Assembly (NCBI RefSeq): GCF_017052465.1
Contig: NZ_JAFHKT010000151.1
Location: 310,001 to 374,000, forward strand
Direction: 5' to 3'
Source: Arthrobacter pascens
Lineage (GTDB): Bacteria; Actinomycetota; Actinomycetes; Actinomycetales; Micrococcaceae
Length of the DNA: 64,000 bases
Below the pieces are notes generated by a model. That model searched no databases. It saw only the letters and a list, made by a program, of their open reading frames with translations, and had not been told where the DNA came from. Every line of letters begins with the position of its first letter. Position 1 is the stretch's first letter. Both the position numbers and the translations under genes were made by a program. Shown here piece after piece: positions 32,070 through 37,507 of this stretch.

Positions 32070-32473
32070 GCCGAACTTGGGGATCCCCTCTTCCTGCCGC
32101 CAGGGCTGACACGGCGCGTCTAGAGCTGGACATGAGCTGCCGCCACTGGGCTCGTCACTCCTCGGAACCGCCCGTTCCAGCGTTCGGGGGTTCTTCGGGA
32201 GGCCGAAACGCGTGCCACTCGGCCCGAGGGTCGTAAAGCGAGCTCGTCGCCTCCACGTGCGCCGCGCAAGCCAGCAGGCCACGGATCACTTAGTGCACGA
32301 ATTGTTCATGGACGAAACTCTCTGGTAGCTTTTCTATCGTCCTCTCGGCAGGTATGCCCCCAAATGCCTGCCGGGAGGAAGCGCCGAATCGGAGAACCCT
32401 GGGTGAAGTAATAGGGGACAGGCCGCCCATGCAGATTGAAGCTAGGTTTTCCTCTTAACAGCGAGAAGGTTCC
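32070..32473. other. Intergenic region with a promoter-hairpin element
   Basis: 404 bp between terC and the AraC gene. The left 200 bp hold nothing I can support. The right part contains the first copy of the repeated promoter plus hairpin (32293-32378), then a leader of about 95 bases to the AraC start. Confidence 0.5.
32293..32378 (+). promoter_or_regulatory. Repeated promoter plus 5' hairpin element, copy A
   Basis: GTGCACGAATTGTTC opens the element. -35 TTGTTC (32302-32307) and -10 TAGCTT (32326-32331) are 18 bp apart. The transcript would begin near 32338 and at once form a 12-bp stem: CCTCTCGGCAGG (32341-32352) with CCTGCCGGGAGG (32367-32378). The loop is TATGCCCCCAAATG. A second copy with the same layout stands at 36856. 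Here the AraC-type gene follows. Confidence 0.6.
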
Positions 32474-33529
32474 ATGGAACACATCCCTGCCTCCTGCGAT
32501 GACGCTGGCGGGTTGGGTGCGGGGGAACCGCAGAGTGGGCTGATCCGGCGCTACGGCGTTCCGGCCGGGCTGAATCCGGAGGAAAGATTTGAACACTGGC
32601 GCACTTGGTACGGCAGTGCAGTTGATACTCCCATGCGGCTGGAAAAAGTCGAAAATTCAGTGCATCGCAATTTTAGTCCAACCGCTTCAAGCTTGGGTGG
32701 TCCCGGTTTCAGCATTGTTGAGCTTGTAAATGAGCCAGTGGCTGGCTACTGGAACCGGGATTCATGTTCTGGGGAAATCAGGCTTGTACATTTCAAAACT
32801 TCATCGGCCGAATTCAACTTCTCAGGACGTTCAGAAGTGATCTCTCCTGGCACAGTGAGGTTTCTGGATCTTTCTTCCGGTGGCGGCTTCAATGCGCCCG
32901 CCGGATTGGCCACGGTGCAGATCAACATCGACCGTAGCCTGCTTGGCCTGGACGAAAAGTCGGTGAAGCGACTACAGAGAATCGCCGATATCAGGGAGAA
33001 CCCGCTGGTCCGGGGATTGCTTCTTCCCGGGTTGTCGGACTGGCAGCGGACGGGTCTCGATCGGGAGATGCACCGGCTCGGGCCGGTAGTCCGGTCCCTG
33101 ATGGCGGCCCTGATCAGTTCCGTCCTGGAGGCCCCCGCCGAGGCCAGCGACCTCAAACCGGTTCGCCTCGCGGCGGTCAAGAAGTTCATACATAGGAACT
33201 TCAGAAACCAAGACCTTGATGTGGACGCCGTAGTGGCATACTCGTTCCTTTCCCGCCGCGCGCTCTACTACCTCTTTGAAGATGAAGGTCTGCCCGTGAA
33301 CGGGTACATCCGCGCCCTCAGGACACTGGAGGCAGTCGATCTCCTCACGGACCCCAACTCCAGGAGACGTTCCCTGGCAGGCATAGCAGACGCCAGCGGC
33401 TTCAAGACCCTGCAAGCCATGCGGCGTGCCGTAAAAGAGTCAACTGGCTCCTCTCTTAAGGAATTGCAGGAGAACCCCGAAGTGCTGCGAAGTCGCGCGC
33501 ATGAACTCAGGAAACTGATCGGGACTTAG
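32474..33529 (+). CDS. AraC-family transcriptional regulator
   Basis: A 351-residue protein. The N-terminal half resembles the AraC-binding-like (AraC_binding_2) domain, with FDLS-type strands (EVISPGTVRFLDLSSGGGF). The C-terminal AraC DNA-binding domain (about 235-345) contains VKKFIHRNFRNQDLDVDAVVAYSFLSRRALYYLFEDEGLPVNGYIRALRTLEAVDLL and a second helix-turn-helix, SLAGIADASGFKTLQAMRRAVKESTGSSLKEL. ATG 32474 has GAGAAGG four bases upstream. The promoter-hairpin element in its leader suggests a structured 5' UTR. The inducer is unknown. Confidence 0.88.
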   Translation: MEHIPASCDDAGGLGAGEPQSGLIRRYGVPAGLNPEERFEHWRTWYGSAVDTPMRLEKVENSVHRNFSPTASSLGGPGFSIVELVNEPVAGYWNRDSCSGEIRLVHFKTSSAEFNFSGRSEVISPGTVRFLDLSSGGGFNAPAGLATVQINIDRSLLGLDEKSVKRLQRIADIRENPLVRGLLLPGLSDWQRTGLDREMHRLGPVVRSLMAALISSVLEAPAEASDLKPVRLAAVKKFIHRNFRNQDLDVDAVVAYSFLSRRALYYLFEDEGLPVNGYIRALRTLEAVDLLTDPNSRRRSLAGIADASGFKTLQAMRRAVKESTGSSLKELQENPEVLRSRAHELRKLIGT

Positions 33530-34060
33530 CGTGGATGCCGGGCATGCTAAGCGGCGAAGTGCTGCCCGCGACTGCTGCGCGAAGTCCCCCCACGAAACCG
33601 GGGCCCGACAAGTAGTCGCCAGCCAATGTCCTGCCCCTGAAATCTCGCTTCAGACGTCGCCGGATTGTTTCAAGGATCTGCTCTGCGGTCTTGCTCCAGA
33701 TGAAGGTTTGGGTTCTCGCTCCATGCTTTGACCCGGTTGTCGATGTCTGCCGCCAATGCATTGCACGGGAGGCCTCATTGAGCTTCAAAGATTGCACGCA
33801 CTGAAAGCTGTCGCCAGTTGCTCCCGGCGTCACCAGCCGTAGGATTTTTACAGAACCGCAGATGGTGGAAGCCGGAACGGGAACCACAGCACTTTCCGAG
33901 CGTCTGCCCGATGTAAGGAGGCCTTCGGCCGGAAAGCACATCCGGCTCACAGGTTCTTCGAAAGCACGCGGAGCAGTGTTGACCCGCGGTTCGATAAGGG
34001 GATCGCATTGAGGCGCATCATGGCGACAAGTCCCCAGCACGACAGTGAGCGGAAGGCAGA
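33530..34060. other. Gap containing an IS630-type remnant
   Basis: 531 bp between the AraC gene and a small gene. The only recognisable content is the transposase tail described at 33620-33775. The rest shows no gene. The promoter for 34061 must lie near the right end. Confidence 0.5.
33620..33775 (-). pseudogene. IS630-family transposase C-terminal remnant
   Basis: Read on the minus strand, LAADIDNRVKAWSENPN is followed in the next frame by TFIWSKTAEQILETIRRRLKR. Together these match the C-terminus of IS630-type DDE transposases (LxxDIxxWIxxWNENPxPFxWTKTADEIL). A one-base frameshift falls between the two parts and the rest of the gene is missing. Confidence 0.7.
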
Positions 34061-34297
34061 ATGATCACGGCCACGGAGACTGAACATATCTATCACGTCA
34101 CGGGCGACAAGCCGCGGTTGATCGACGAGGACCTGAGCAAGGCCGTCGAGTTAGCCCAACGACGGGCCATGAAAGAGGGGAGGGGTGGCATCCTCGTAAC
34201 GCGGTGTGCACCCGGGTCCTTCAGCGTGGAAGTGAGCGCCGACGTCCCCTACGGAGTGACGCGGGAATCGTGCGAGATGGGGATCCCTCACCCATGA
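34061..34297 (+). CDS. Small conserved protein of unknown function
   Basis: A 78-residue protein with GGAAGG a few bases before ATG 34061. Codon use matches the neighbours, and the sequence (EHIYHVTGDKPRLIDEDLSKAVELAQRRAMKEGRGGILVTRCAPGSFSVEVSADVPYGVTRE) looks like a compact alpha/beta domain. I do not recognise a named family, though small proteins of this style are common in Arthrobacter. Its stop overlaps the start of the next gene (ATGA). Confidence 0.7.
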   Translation: MITATETEHIYHVTGDKPRLIDEDLSKAVELAQRRAMKEGRGGILVTRCAPGSFSVEVSADVPYGVTRESCEMGIPHP

Positions 34298-34542
34298 CTG
34301 GAAGCCAAGATCCTGTATCAATAAAAGCTGCATTTGAGTTCATTCCGGAGGGAAGCCACGTCGAGCTGATCAGCCACGGCCACCACATTGGGAGTGGCGT
34401 CATTGATGAGTGGATGCCAGATGGTTCATCTTTCTGGATCTGGCTCGATAATGGAGCGGGCAGACGCCTTGTACATGAGAGTGACGTCGTAAATATAGTC
34501 GCCTCCGCCCCGATCCGCGACAGCTGGTCTGGGCATGTGTGA
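34294..34542 (+). CDS. Small protein of unknown function, coupled to 34061
   Basis: An 82-residue protein starting at ATG 34294 in the stop of the preceding gene. FIPEGSHVELISHGHHIGSGVIDEWMPDGSSFWIWLDNGAGRRLVHESDVVNIV suggests an all-beta barrel (SH3 or Tudor-like), with strands separated by glycines. No named domain is recognised. Translational coupling suggests a joint role with the 78-residue protein. Confidence 0.62.
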   Translation: MTGSQDPVSIKAAFEFIPEGSHVELISHGHHIGSGVIDEWMPDGSSFWIWLDNGAGRRLVHESDVVNIVASAPIRDSWSGHV

Positions 34543-34719
34543 CAACCAATCTGCGTGGCCAAAACTCTTCGCCAGCTGCCACCACCTGCAGGCACCCCCC
34601 ATTCTGGATCCCGTCGCCGGGCAGATTGTGGCCTGCGCGGGCCGAAGTCCGGGATTCGAGAGAGCGGGCCGTTTGTTGTCTCGGTGGTCAACAGTTTGGG
34701 CGCGCATGGTTTCGGTGCC

Positions 34720-35268
34720 ATGACTGCGATAAATACCCCTACGGGCGATGATGATGTGCCGGACGAAGATCTTCTGCTTGAACGCCAGCTCTTCTTCGCC
34801 TTATCCGTTGCGTCCCGCACTGCCGTCAGTGCCTGCAAGCGAGTTCTTCAGGAATTGAATCTGACTCATCCGCAATACCTGGTGATGCTCACTCTTTGGG
34901 AGGCGAGTCCGCGGTCGGTCAACGAGATCAGTGAGGCTCTCCTCCTCGGACCGGCCACCGTATCCCCGCTGCTCAAGCGTCTGGAGGCGTCCGGGTATGT
35001 CACGCGGCGGCGGGTGCAGGGAGACGAGCGTTCTCTTGCCGTAGGCCTGACCCCGGAGGGCGCCGCGCTGCGGGACAGGGCACGCGCCGTTCCCGGCACC
35101 ATGCTCGGAAGACTCGGTCTCAGCCGTACCGAAGCCGAGGAACTCCACGGGTACATGACCCGACTTCTCCGCTCCGCCAAGACGGACCGCGCGGAATCGG
35201 ACAATGCTCCGGGCGCCAGCCAGGAGATCGCAGCCAGCGGCAACACATCCACTACGATTGGCCGTTGA
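34720..35268 (+). CDS. MarR-family regulator, OhrR-like but lacking the sensing cysteine
   Basis: A 182-residue MarR protein aligned with OhrR: DLLLERQLFFALSVASRTAVSACKRVLQELNLTHPQYLVMLTLWEASPRSVNEISEALLLGPATVSPLLKRLEASGYV. In OhrR the residue after RQL is the peroxide-reactive Cys; here it is Phe25. The tyrosine 14 residues later that hydrogen-bonds this Cys in the Bacillus protein is Cys39 here. The other tyrosine (PQYL) is kept. It may sense another signal or be a silent paralogue. ATG 34720 gives the normal length. Residues about 44-129 are nearly identical in DNA to the regulator at 36142. Confidence 0.85.
   Translation: MTAINTPTGDDDVPDEDLLLERQLFFALSVASRTAVSACKRVLQELNLTHPQYLVMLTLWEASPRSVNEISEALLLGPATVSPLLKRLEASGYVTRRRVQGDERSLAVGLTPEGAALRDRARAVPGTMLGRLGLSRTEAEELHGYMTRLLRSAKTDRAESDNAPGASQEIAASGNTSTTIGR
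34849..35106 (+). repeat. 258-bp inverted repeat arm, regulator core (copy 1)
   Basis: This stretch matches the reverse complement of 36301-36558 over the full 258 bp with four mismatches by my count, while the flanking parts of the two regulator genes differ much more. The abrupt borders suggest gene conversion or recombination between paralogues. Confidence 0.85.
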
Positions 35269-35404
35269 CACGGAAGGCCTTGACCCAATCCGATGCACGG
35301 GCGACCAACCGGCCGGAGACAAGCGAAGGGGTGCGACGCCGCCCGCCGAAGCACGAGGTTCCCTGACAGCAGGCCGGGGGATGCGTCGTTCACGTCTCAG
35401 CAAC

Positions 35405-36013
35405 TCAGAGCGTGAAACTGGGGCATGGGCCGGAACTATCACGTGCCGGAACAATGATGCCCGGGAACGGTTCGACGGCAAGTTCTCGCGCCCGGAGCAT
35501 CGCCTGCCCTGACGCTTCGATCAAGTTTCGTCCGCTAGCTGAGGATCGGAAGAGGTCACGTGCCCATTCGAACTCGGCTGCGGCATCCCGGTACCTCGCC
35601 TCCTCAAAAAGGCGCCGGCCGATCTGATGCCGTGCATAAGCTTCCCTTTCTAGCGTTCCGGCCAGCCGGAGGGCCTCCTCCTGAAGCCGAGCGGCCTCCT
35701 GCCACCGGTACTGGCCCTGGTAAACGCGTGCCAGAACGAGCAAGGGGTGAAACTTGTTGACGGCGCGCTCCAGCAACACTTGCCCGCGCTCCGCGGCTTC
35801 ATCGCCTCGCCCCAAGAGACCAAGGAGCCAAACCCGTTCCAGAGCAGAACACACCTGGAGCCTCCTGACGATGGCATCACGATCCAGCACAGTGTCCCGC
35901 AGTGTCGTCGGATCAGTAGCCCAAAGCTCACCTCCCAATGCCGTAAGTTCCCTTCTGCCATGCCCCGCCAGCGAAGTGGTACTTCTTACTCTTCCGCTGG
36001 AGAGCACCAGCAC
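35405..36013 (-). CDS. Tetratricopeptide-repeat-like helical protein
   Basis: A protein of up to 202 residues. The body (about residues 45-175) is a run of helical pairs: LERVWLLGLLGRGDEAAERGQVLLERA, HPLLVLARVYQGQYRWQEAARLQEEALRLA, EREAYARHQIGRRLFEEARYRDAAAEFEWARDLF. These fit TPR repeats. The start is unclear; the frame opens at GTG 36013 and has no good ribosome site, so the first 30 residues may be untranslated. It lies on the minus strand 128 bp after the OhrR-like gene and inside the segment flanked by the inverted repeats. Role unknown; probably a protein-protein adaptor. Confidence 0.65.
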   Translation of the reverse strand: MLVLSSGRVRSTTSLAGHGRRELTALGGELWATDPTTLRDTVLDRDAIVRRLQVCSALERVWLLGLLGRGDEAAERGQVLLERAVNKFHPLLVLARVYQGQYRWQEAARLQEEALRLAGTLEREAYARHQIGRRLFEEARYRDAAAEFEWARDLFRSSASGRNLIEASGQAMLRARELAVEPFPGIIVPARDSSGPCPSFTL

Positions 36014-36141
36014 GAAAACCCGAACTGCAGGACAACGTTTTCAAGCTCCGATCCGTCCGACCATGGGTCGTGCTGGAACAGATGCATCGACCGCGCCGAG
36101 ATGAGGGACGGGGCGGGCTGCCCCGACACCAACCGGCCGGA

Positions 36142-36666
36142 TCACCGGCCACTCGTACTGCGCGGATCAATGGTGCCAGATCCCATCTGCACGGCAGCGC
36201 CAAGACCAGGCCGGTTGTCTGCCTGGGAAACCTTGAGGAGACGAGCCATTCTTCCCCGAAGAAGTTCCTCGTCGTCCGTGCGATTGAGACCGAGTTTTCG
36301 GAGCATGGTGCCGGGAACGGCGCGTGCCCTGTCCCGCAGCGCGGCGCCCTCCGGGGTCAGGCCTACGGCAAGAGAATGCTCGTCTCCCTGCACCCGCCGC
36401 CGCGTGACGTACCCGGACGCCTCCAGACGCTTGAGCAGCGGGGATACGGTGGCCGGTCCGAGCAGGAGAGCCTCACTGATCTCGTTGACCGACCGCGGAC
36501 TCGCCTCCCAAAGAGTGAGCATCACCAGGTATTGCGGATGAGTGAGATTCAATTCCTGGAGAACGGGCTTGTAGGCACTGATGACGGCACGTGAGGCAGC
36601 AGCCAGAGCGAAACAGAGCTGGCGTTCGAGCAGAAGTTCGTCCTCGCTCCCTGAAAGGGAAGTCAT
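36142..36666 (-). CDS. ohrR: OhrR-like MarR-family organic peroxide sensor
   Basis: A 174-residue MarR protein with the full OhrR signature: LLLERQLCFALAAASRAVISAYKPVLQELNLTHPQYLVMLTLWE. Cys18 matches the single reactive Cys of OhrR, Tyr32 and the PQY tyrosine match its hydrogen-bond partners. The winged helix follows (SVNEISEALLLGPATVSPLLKRLEASGYVTRRRVQGDEHSLAVGLTPEGAAL). OhrR represses an organic hydroperoxide reductase gene (ohr), but none is visible here. The C-terminal 25 residues are variable. It lies in opposite orientation to its paralogue at 34720. Confidence 0.85.
   Translation of the reverse strand: MTSLSGSEDELLLERQLCFALAAASRAVISAYKPVLQELNLTHPQYLVMLTLWEASPRSVNEISEALLLGPATVSPLLKRLEASGYVTRRRVQGDEHSLAVGLTPEGAALRDRARAVPGTMLRKLGLNRTDDEELLRGRMARLLKVSQADNRPGLGAAVQMGSGTIDPRSTSGR
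36301..36558 (-). repeat. 258-bp inverted repeat arm, regulator core (copy 2)
   Basis: Partner of 34849-35106 in opposite orientation, four mismatches in 258 bp. The arms enclose about 1.2 kb including the TPR gene, so the segment could invert by homologous recombination. Confidence 0.85.
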
Positions 36667-37183
36667 GACAGCAATGGTATCGAAAGGACGACGCGGCCCG
36701 GACCACGGGGGTCACCCGCAGAGAGCTGACCCCCACAGGTGGAAACCACACGTCTGGTGTTCGGCAGTGAAGAAGGTCGGCAGCCATCGGCCAGCTTTTT
36801 GAGGCCCGGGAGTTTCAGCAGATGCGCGGATTCAGTGCAAGTCTGGCGTAAGTTCGTGCACGAATTGTTCGTGTCCGAATTATCGGGTAGATTCTTCGTA
36901 GTTCCATCCCGCTATGCCGCCCCCAATGCTGGCGGGATGGAACCCTCATGGCCAGAATCGTAGTGCTTGCGGTGATCCCTCTGCAGCCTGCTGACAGCGC
37001 ATTGCATCGACCGGAAAAGGCACATGCGAACGGAGCAGCTGGCCCACGCCGCAGTCCTAAGCGCAAGTAGCCTGGCGTGTTCTGGCTGCGCCCTTCCTGG
37101 CTCCCTTGGCATCAACTTATTAAGCGTTGCGGATGCCAAATATCGGGGGGAGACTGGGAAAAAGTGCGAGAGGAGCATTTGTC
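36667..37183. other. Intergenic region with the second promoter-hairpin element
   Basis: 517 bp. The left half holds the promoter side of the OhrR-like gene. The element at 36856-36942 follows. After it, a 40-codon frame begins at ATG 36948 (MARIVVLAVIPLQPADS...) and ends at 37070. Its ribosome site is poor and it may be untranslated leader of the PepSY-like gene at 37184. Confidence 0.45.
36856..36942 (+). promoter_or_regulatory. Repeated promoter plus 5' hairpin element, copy B
   Basis: The opening 15 bases GTGCACGAATTGTTC are identical to copy A. -35 TTGTTC (36865-36870) and -10 TAGATT (36888-36893) are 17 bp apart. The predicted transcript opens with an 11-bp perfect stem: TTCCATCCCGC (36902-36912) with GCGGGATGGAA (36932-36942). 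The loop again begins TATGCC and contains CCCCCAATG. The stem bases differ from copy A while pairing is kept. The next gene downstream is at 37184, 240 bases on. Confidence 0.6.
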
Positions 37184-37507
37184 ATGCGCAAGAGAACCTG
37201 GGTTATCGGAGCCGCAGTGGCAGGGCTTGCGCTCGGCGGCGCAACCGTTGCAGCCGCATCCGTGAACCCCTTCGACAACGAGGGAACCGCAGACGGCGGA
37301 ACGCAGAGCCCGTTGAGCCAGACTGACCGTGACAAGGCAGTGCAGGCCGCCATGGCCAAGGTGGGCCAGGGAACGGTGACGGAAGTGGAGCGGGACGAGA
37401 ACCCGAACTCCGCCTATGAAGTCGAGCTGCGGCTTGCCAACGGTTCAGAAGTCGAAGTCGCAGTCGGCAAGGACTTCCAGGTCCTGAGCCAGAGCCCCGA
37501 CGACTGA
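37184..37507 (+). CDS. Secreted or membrane-anchored PepSY-like protein
   Basis: A 107-residue protein with GAGAGGAG eight bases before ATG 37184. The N-terminus (MRKRTWVIGAAVAGLALGGATVAAASV) is a signal sequence or single anchor without a lipobox. The rest (LSQTDRDKAVQAAMAKVGQGTVTEVERDENPNSAYEVELRLANGSEVEVAVGKDFQVL) has the PepSY pattern: a helix followed by strands with YEVE. Such domains often inhibit peptidases or sense envelope state. The promoter-hairpin copy B lies upstream and may drive it. Confidence 0.75.
   Translation: MRKRTWVIGAAVAGLALGGATVAAASVNPFDNEGTADGGTQSPLSQTDRDKAVQAAMAKVGQGTVTEVERDENPNSAYEVELRLANGSEVEVAVGKDFQVLSQSPDD

Follow-up and report, generated by a model that had tools for sequence, protein, structure and literature searches.

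Hairpins at the 5' terminus stabilise some bacterial mRNAs, as does the leader of E. coli ompA, and autoregulated promoters of the AraC family use direct-repeat operators. To our knowledge, few leader RNAs have been characterised in soil actinobacteria. Two elements of Arthrobacter pascens, hereafter copies A and B, recall both systems; they were found in the window, i.e. the whole stretch of 64,000 nucleotides that was analysed. As in ompA-type hairpins, a stable stem is predicted at the extreme 5' end of an mRNA leader; the present elements differ in their conserved loop sequence and in their recurrence within the putative regulon of the regulator itself. As in autoregulated promoters of the AraC family, direct-repeat half-sites occur near or upstream of the regulator gene with a fixed geometry relative to the -10 box, whereas the repeat spacing is 31 bp, copies A and B carry a single half-site lying on the -35 box, and the sites are predicted ones.

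A third system, 6C RNA (Rfam RF01066), shares with copies A and B the C-rich hairpin loop and the actinobacterial host. It consists of two stem-loops with typically six Cs each (PMC4046766), in contrast to the one 5'-end hairpin with five Cs, mostly located before genes, encountered here. It is reported to be present in Corynebacterium glutamicum and to pair, by its C-rich loop, with G-rich stretches of target mRNAs. The earlier note had evoked 6C RNA while pointing to a different layout (one hairpin, five Cs); the difference in layout was borne out, but the link itself was not, since Rfam provided no match. This was the case for copies A and B at gathering scores, for region 32100-37300 at E values up to 5, and for the loci of copy B and of two Paenarthrobacter elements (G034 and G096, see below) at E values up to 1. 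A search of the A. pascens genome with RF01066 (E up to 10) also remained without match, which is a weak test since the C. glutamicum 6C control matched only below the cut-off. In titles and abstract openings of the literature on 6C RNA and C-rich loops, Arthrobacter small RNAs, ABC-F leaders, and AraC, EAL or c-di-GMP in Arthrobacter, the element was undescribed.

Predicted promoters and hairpins of copies A and B

Both copies were recovered where the earlier note had placed them, each with a common block, a TAGNTT -10 hexamer and, where the transcript is predicted to begin, a strong hairpin. In copy A, the promoter block TTAGTGCACGAATTGTTC (32290-32307, forward strand, as for all features of both copies) contains a candidate AraC half-site, TGCACGAATTG (32294-32304), overlapping a -35-like TTGTTC (32302-32307). 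An 18-nt spacer separates the latter from a -10-like TAGCTT (32326-32331), which lies 32 bp from the half-site start and is followed, at the predicted transcript start, by a 16-bp hairpin with loop GCCCCCAA (32340-32379) that was also matched by a covariance model (see below). Copy B is composed of block TTCGTGCACGAATTGTTC (36853-36870) with the same half-site (36857-36867) and TTGTTC (36865-36870), a 17-nt spacer, a -10-like TAGATT (36888-36893, 31 bp from the half-site start) and a 14-bp hairpin (36901-36943), whose loop is TGCCGCCCCCAATGC by continuous pairing and includes the five Cs.

The two copies displayed 85% identity over a 27-nt block. Sequence GTGCACGAATTGTTC occurred exactly twice in the window (32293-32307 in copy A and 36856-36870 in copy B), and the pattern TGCACGAATTGTTC-N15-21-TAG had two matches in the 4.8-Mb assembly of A. 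pascens and none in the 120 other genomes of the genus (121 searched). The exact 11-mer TGCACGAATTG was present at three sites of this assembly, i.e. copy A, copy B and a position inside a 771-aa ORF. TANNNT is the actinobacterial -10 motif, and the hexamers of both copies fit it. The well-spaced -35 and -10 hexamers announced by the earlier note are present, with spacers of 18 and 17 nt, but their agreement with the E. coli consensus is low (three of six positions each, by eye) and a promoter scan listed neither. Likewise, the C-run of the described loop (TATGCC, C-run, AATG) was found again, except that in copy A the TAT and ATG pair with each other and the minimum-free-energy loop is GCCCCCAA. 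Hairpins A and B folded at -31.3 and -26.9 kcal/mol, respectively, with z values of -6.9 and -5.6 against dinucleotide shuffles; in neither case did any of 200 shuffles equal the native fold.

A transposon or large duplication linking A and B was considered and rejected, only the promoter with its hairpin and an inverted pair of MarR-family genes being repeated.

Related elements in other genomes

The element was initially described as occurring twice, and the lack of further copies in any genome was named among the observations that would speak against it; related elements were, on the contrary, found in other genomes as well. At least eight are recognised, including copies A and B: two in Arthrobacter sp. 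AFG20 and one each in Arthrobacter sp. 9AX, Paenarthrobacter nicotinovorans SSBW5 (G096), Paenarthrobacter sp. AR 02 (G034) and genome G296. The last has almost the same sequence as the G096 element and the two are hardly independent.

Relatives of the AraC protein encoded next to copy A occurred in 20 of the 121 genomes of the genus, eleven of which (A. pascens included) displayed at least 58% identity. Sixty loci retrieved with AraC and EAL (about 230 kb in all) were scanned for hairpins with a CCCC loop preceded by TANNNT, which yielded four distinct elements, i.e. A, B and those of G096 and G034; without the loop condition, the same four appeared together with B read in antisense and three hairpins lacking C runs. 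Among the scanned loci of the eleven genomes, the hairpin was restricted to A. pascens, G096 and G034; that most AraC relatives lack it in their vicinity speaks against the leader reading proposed below. A search of named genomes provided 18 AraC loci, all named relatives being from Arthrobacter and Paenarthrobacter; the closest, Arthrobacter sp. AFG20 (AraC protein 88% identical), contributed an orthologue of copy A, termed A', and a second hairpin.

Copies A and B and the elements of G096 and G034 served as training set for a covariance model, R2. Its out-of-sample matches were A' (E 6e-4), the second AFG20 copy (E 3e-4) and the 9AX hairpin (E 0.028), the latter being counted because the operator is present and the -10 nearly identical. 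The G296 element was found in a family-level R2 search (E 3.3e-4, for that genome). In each genome, RNA-model searches scored the best 43 or the best 26 of up to several thousand candidates, and they missed an ABC-F leader hairpin of A. pascens itself that was recovered by DNA similarity, so that counts obtained in this way are lower bounds.

Some candidates were left out: a TANNNT-preceded CCCC hairpin with one mismatch and no R2 match (L120), the second AFG20 hairpin as read in antisense (E 0.031), and six model matches read, by sequence appearance, as terminator-like intergenic hairpins (L077, L078, L083, L094, L100 and L102). Gene mapping among such terminator-like matches covers the example from A. 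pascens, L005. For the five matches listed outside the genus, the 95 bases read on the upstream side lacked the tandem operator; match L162 combined a TANNNT-like stretch upstream with a CCCCCAAT loop. As for plasmid relatives, distant blastn searches were negative for B and, for A, yielded a single short match that was unrelated.

Conservation of the hairpin structure

Compensatory changes between A and B, on which the earlier note had insisted, were confirmed. In a structure-fitted alignment of 13 pairs, five differed on both sides with pairing kept, one on a single side, six were unchanged and one was unpaired in one copy. A six-sequence alignment, also fitted to the structure and composed without 9AX and G296, displayed pairing in 94.9% of its 78 cells and two-sided changes in eight of 13 pairs (16 cells). 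This number of pairs was reached by two of 500 shuffles, slid versions of the alignment gave zero to two, and the covariation score was 0.738 versus 0.275 in shuffles; since the alignment was fitted to the structure, these values lean towards it. The least biased comparison is that of A with its orthologue A', where the 13 aligned pairs included no two-sided change, a single one-sided change and two pairs unpaired in one sequence, the A' stem being longer at its base. All of the seven elements that were folded surpassed their shuffles in stability (z -3.9 to -5.6). Because relatives retained the hairpin despite changed letters, the RNA shape seems to matter. The idea that the transcripts begin with a conserved RNA structure gained support from both covariation and the additional copies.

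Two further candidate functions were rejected. A conserved leader peptide is contradicted by the C-run, whose length (five in A, six in A') shifts the ATGCCCCC frame between the two orthologues. A pseudoknot between the C loop and a GGGG of the A leader was also considered; A' retains this GGGG, but inspection by eye revealed none in the G034 leader before the nearest ATG.

Genes downstream of the hairpins

Copy A precedes a gene for an AraC-family regulator of 351 aa (32474-33529, forward strand; Pfam HTH_18 42 bits, cut-off 33.6), for which the nearest NCBIfam model was FeaR (53.9 bits, under its cut-off of 199). The remainder of the predicted araC leader (94 nt, 32380-32473, forward strand) was mostly conserved in AFG20, where the corresponding distance is 90 nt. 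In G034, the hairpin is followed by a FliG gene with all three FliG domains, the nearest ATG being at 67 nt. The second AFG20 copy precedes, by about 325 nt, a gene for an OmpR-type response regulator; what appears by eye to be the same response regulator gene lies about 150-200 nt downstream of the 9AX hairpin. After copy B, the nearest clearly recognised gene on the same strand encodes a small secreted-type protein with a PepSY domain (37184-37507, forward strand; NCBIfam PepSY_MTB 76.3 bits, cut-off 60), 240 nt past the hairpin. In G096, no sense gene was found in the stretch read and the next ORF is antisense and without Pfam match. Given this diversity among the seven elements covered (araC, fliG and response regulator genes on one side, G096 and copy B on the other), most copies look like leaders, though not all.

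The fliG gene of G034 (L039, 2565-3641) lies amid non-flagellar neighbours (DUF1345, dioxygenase, LysR-type fragment), beside EAL and AraC genes.

In our proposal, copies A and B represent promoters belonging to the regulon of an AraC-family protein, each followed immediately by a 5'-terminal hairpin, and would form leaders stabilising the mRNA or docking a factor, a reading that we believe and doubt in about equal measure. What the DNA itself displays are the hairpins, base changes that keep the pairing, the recurrent operator and the constant distance separating it from the -10. Judging from the operator described below, the nearby AraC-type regulator probably controls the two transcripts: it would bind TGCACGAATTG and thereby regulate its own mRNA at copy A and a second transcript at copy B. 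With a predicted transcription start only a few bases away from the hairpin, near 32338 in A and 36899 in B, roughly the first 45 nt of each RNA would form a long GC-rich stem closed by a CCCCCAA loop. In most copies, this would be the 5' leader of a gene involved in regulation or motility, i.e. araC, an OmpR-type response regulator gene or fliG. Such a stem would protect the mRNA 5' end against decay, and the C-rich loop may additionally dock a trans-acting protein or a G-rich RNA. If this is true, one local transcription factor is tied to one RNA element, its transcripts, including its own, sharing a single 5' fold; this would be a compact and testable case of combined transcriptional and post-transcriptional control in soil actinobacteria.

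The main and serious rival is that the elements produce independent small RNAs, a possibility that we consider less likely than not. The transcript would end shortly after the hairpin, the C-rich loop would pair with G-rich mRNA stretches, and read-through would occur in some genomes. It is the G096 copy that makes this proposal serious: it displays (like the near-identical G296 element) the full operator, the -10 and the hairpin, yet in G096 lacks a downstream sense gene, the next one being antisense. Variation of the downstream genes among genomes goes in the same direction, as does 6C RNA, a known actinobacterial small RNA with C-rich loops. However, no T-rich tail was seen after the seven hairpins inspected (at most four Ts in the next 12 bases), a terminator scan listed nothing after A or B, and conservation between AFG20 and the window spans the whole leader up to the araC start.

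Candidate half-site and tandem operator

The earlier suggestion that the AraC protein binds the shared block is supported by the fact that TGCACGAATTG, the candidate half-site, corresponds to the first 11 letters of the consensus of a tandem operator adjoining genes of AraC relatives. This operator is a direct repeat of TGCAC units 31 bp apart, with a TANNNT 77-78 bp from the first TGCAC. When spacings of 18 to 39 bp were allowed in AraC loci, 20 of the 22 TGCAC pairs were 31 bp apart, the two others being at 21 and 32 bp. Among distinct 31-bp pairs from AraC- or EAL-linked loci, 21 of 23 displayed TANNNT at 77 or 78 bp, versus 162 of 34,200 random offsets. Loci from a pattern search provided 14 pairs. 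Six were repeats belonging to genomes that carry AraC, and five of these displayed the -10; the other eight came from genomes without a linked AraC gene, where TANNNT never occurred at that distance (0/8). A looser operator pattern is weak by itself since it matched in 66 of 121 genomes and its reversed control often matched too; 15 of its matches, in 11 genomes, were located within 8 kb of an AraC relative.

The tandem operator precedes five of the eight elements, i.e. the second AFG20 copy and those of 9AX, G096 and G034 (31 bp), and that of G296 (32 bp, -10 at 79). In the first four, the tandem promoter lies directly before the hairpin and has no evident -35. A, A' and B instead display a single half-site that overlaps TTGTTC 31-32 bp before the -10, hence 15-16 bp closer to it than in tandem promoters. 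Because of this single half-site and its shifted distance, the three are perhaps regulated differently; the position on the -35 is compatible with AraC repression at A and B, and activation could take place at tandem sites. A tandem promoter also occurs in the window itself (TGCACGGGAGGC and TGCACGCACTGA 31 bp apart, followed by TAGGAT at 33840-33845; 33762-33845, forward strand) before an unclassified ORF of 78 aa without NCBIfam match (34061-34297), and again in AFG20 (L113, 11391). On the opposite strand, G096 carries a further, distinct tandem promoter serving its EAL gene.

AFG20 is homologous to the window from 32290 onwards, where TTAGTGCACGAATTGTT begins; the block and the -10 (as TAGCTTTTCT) are retained, while the stretch between them is poorly conserved. 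Just upstream of this conserved block, AFG20 harbours a mutator-type transposase gene (L113, 8274-9524; Pfam Transposase_mut) between a terC-like gene and araC.

The shared block could alternatively be the operator of a MarR-family protein rather than of AraC, which we regard as unlikely. The candidate regulators would be the MarR-family gene divergent from copy B (36142-36666, reverse strand; Pfam MarR, OhrR model under its cut-off) or its near-copy at 34723-35268. Copy B displays a perfect palindrome, TTCGTGCACGAA, and an imperfect second one 15 bp further on, copy A carries versions with one and two mismatches, and the window holds eight matches at two mismatches or fewer, a number reached by none of 100 shuffles. 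Yet AFG20 has lost the second palindrome while keeping TTAGTGCACGAATTGTT, no MarR match was found in the 21 kb of AFG20 that were compared, and the TGCACGAATTG unit builds the tandem operator beside AraC relatives.

The two MarR-family genes of the window contain a 383-nt inverted repeat (34762-35144 versus 36263-36645, 91% complementary).

C-loop hairpins elsewhere in the genus

Strong hairpins with C-rich loops are not confined to the AraC-linked elements. The window and 726 kb of retrieved loci contained 107 perfect hairpins of at least 10 bp, whose commonest loop hexamers were CCCCCA and CCCCAA (five each). CCCCCAA-loop hairpins also occurred between convergent genes (e.g. L005 in A. pascens), where they were matched by the covariance model as well. 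This leaves room for hairpins acting at the DNA level or as terminators (mobile repeat, bidirectional terminator) that follow a promoter by chance, which for copies A and B appears most improbable: the B, G034 and 9AX copies lie between divergent genes, the hairpin has a fixed position after the -10, an operator is located upstream and the T tail is absent. That A and B are divergent members of the 6C RNA family is scarcely credible, for beyond a C-rich hairpin loop in an actinobacterium they display a single strong hairpin after each promoter and five Cs (six in A').

No general excess of C loops at 5' ends could be shown, the p value of 0.014 resting wholly on three known AraC-linked elements; after their removal, CCCC occurred in none of seven TANNNT-preceded hairpins versus six of 143 others. 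Given this outcome, the frequency of C loops among hairpins and their presence between convergent genes, the C loop may be widespread among strong hairpins of the genus rather than act as a signal.

At 14 or more loci (L076, L080, L082, L084-L093 and L101), the leader preceding an ABC-F gene (MTATLVAKDLSGGHDH...) contained a second class of hairpin, with a nearly fixed sequence (core GTCCGTACACCCCCCAAGTCCGGAC) and a CCCCCCAA loop, downstream of TANNNT. The A. pascens genome carries this form too (L172, found by DNA similarity). The encoded protein scored under the cut-offs of ABC-F models, and Rfam gave no match at E values up to 1 in the five loci tested. As in copies A and B, TANNNT is followed within about 8-9 nt by the hairpin with its CCCCCCAA loop; in contrast to them, the stem is nearly invariant, the gene is a different one and the aligned upstream sequence displays no AraC operator. 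The C-run numbers five in L076 and six in the 13 other loci, and a leader peptide was rejected on account of this variable length.

The occurrence of a C-loop 5' hairpin on the ABC-F gene of A. pascens itself suggests a wider rule. Speculatively, a trans-acting factor (protein or RNA) of Arthrobacter and its relatives might recognise 5'-terminal CCCCC(C)AA-loop hairpins installed independently on unrelated transcripts, which would amount to a post-transcriptional regulon not yet described. Its supposed members would be the AraC regulon (A, B, fliG and response regulator), the ribosome-protection-like gene of ABC-F type and a small gene coding for some 100 aa; we consider this factor and its membership, taken together, as rather doubtful. 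The small gene, preceded by a similar hairpin whose loop is of the TTTCCCCCAATC or TTACCCCCAATC type at no fewer than four loci (L079, L095, L097 and L099), has a GTG start and an AAGGA-type ribosome site, its frame being broken in L097.
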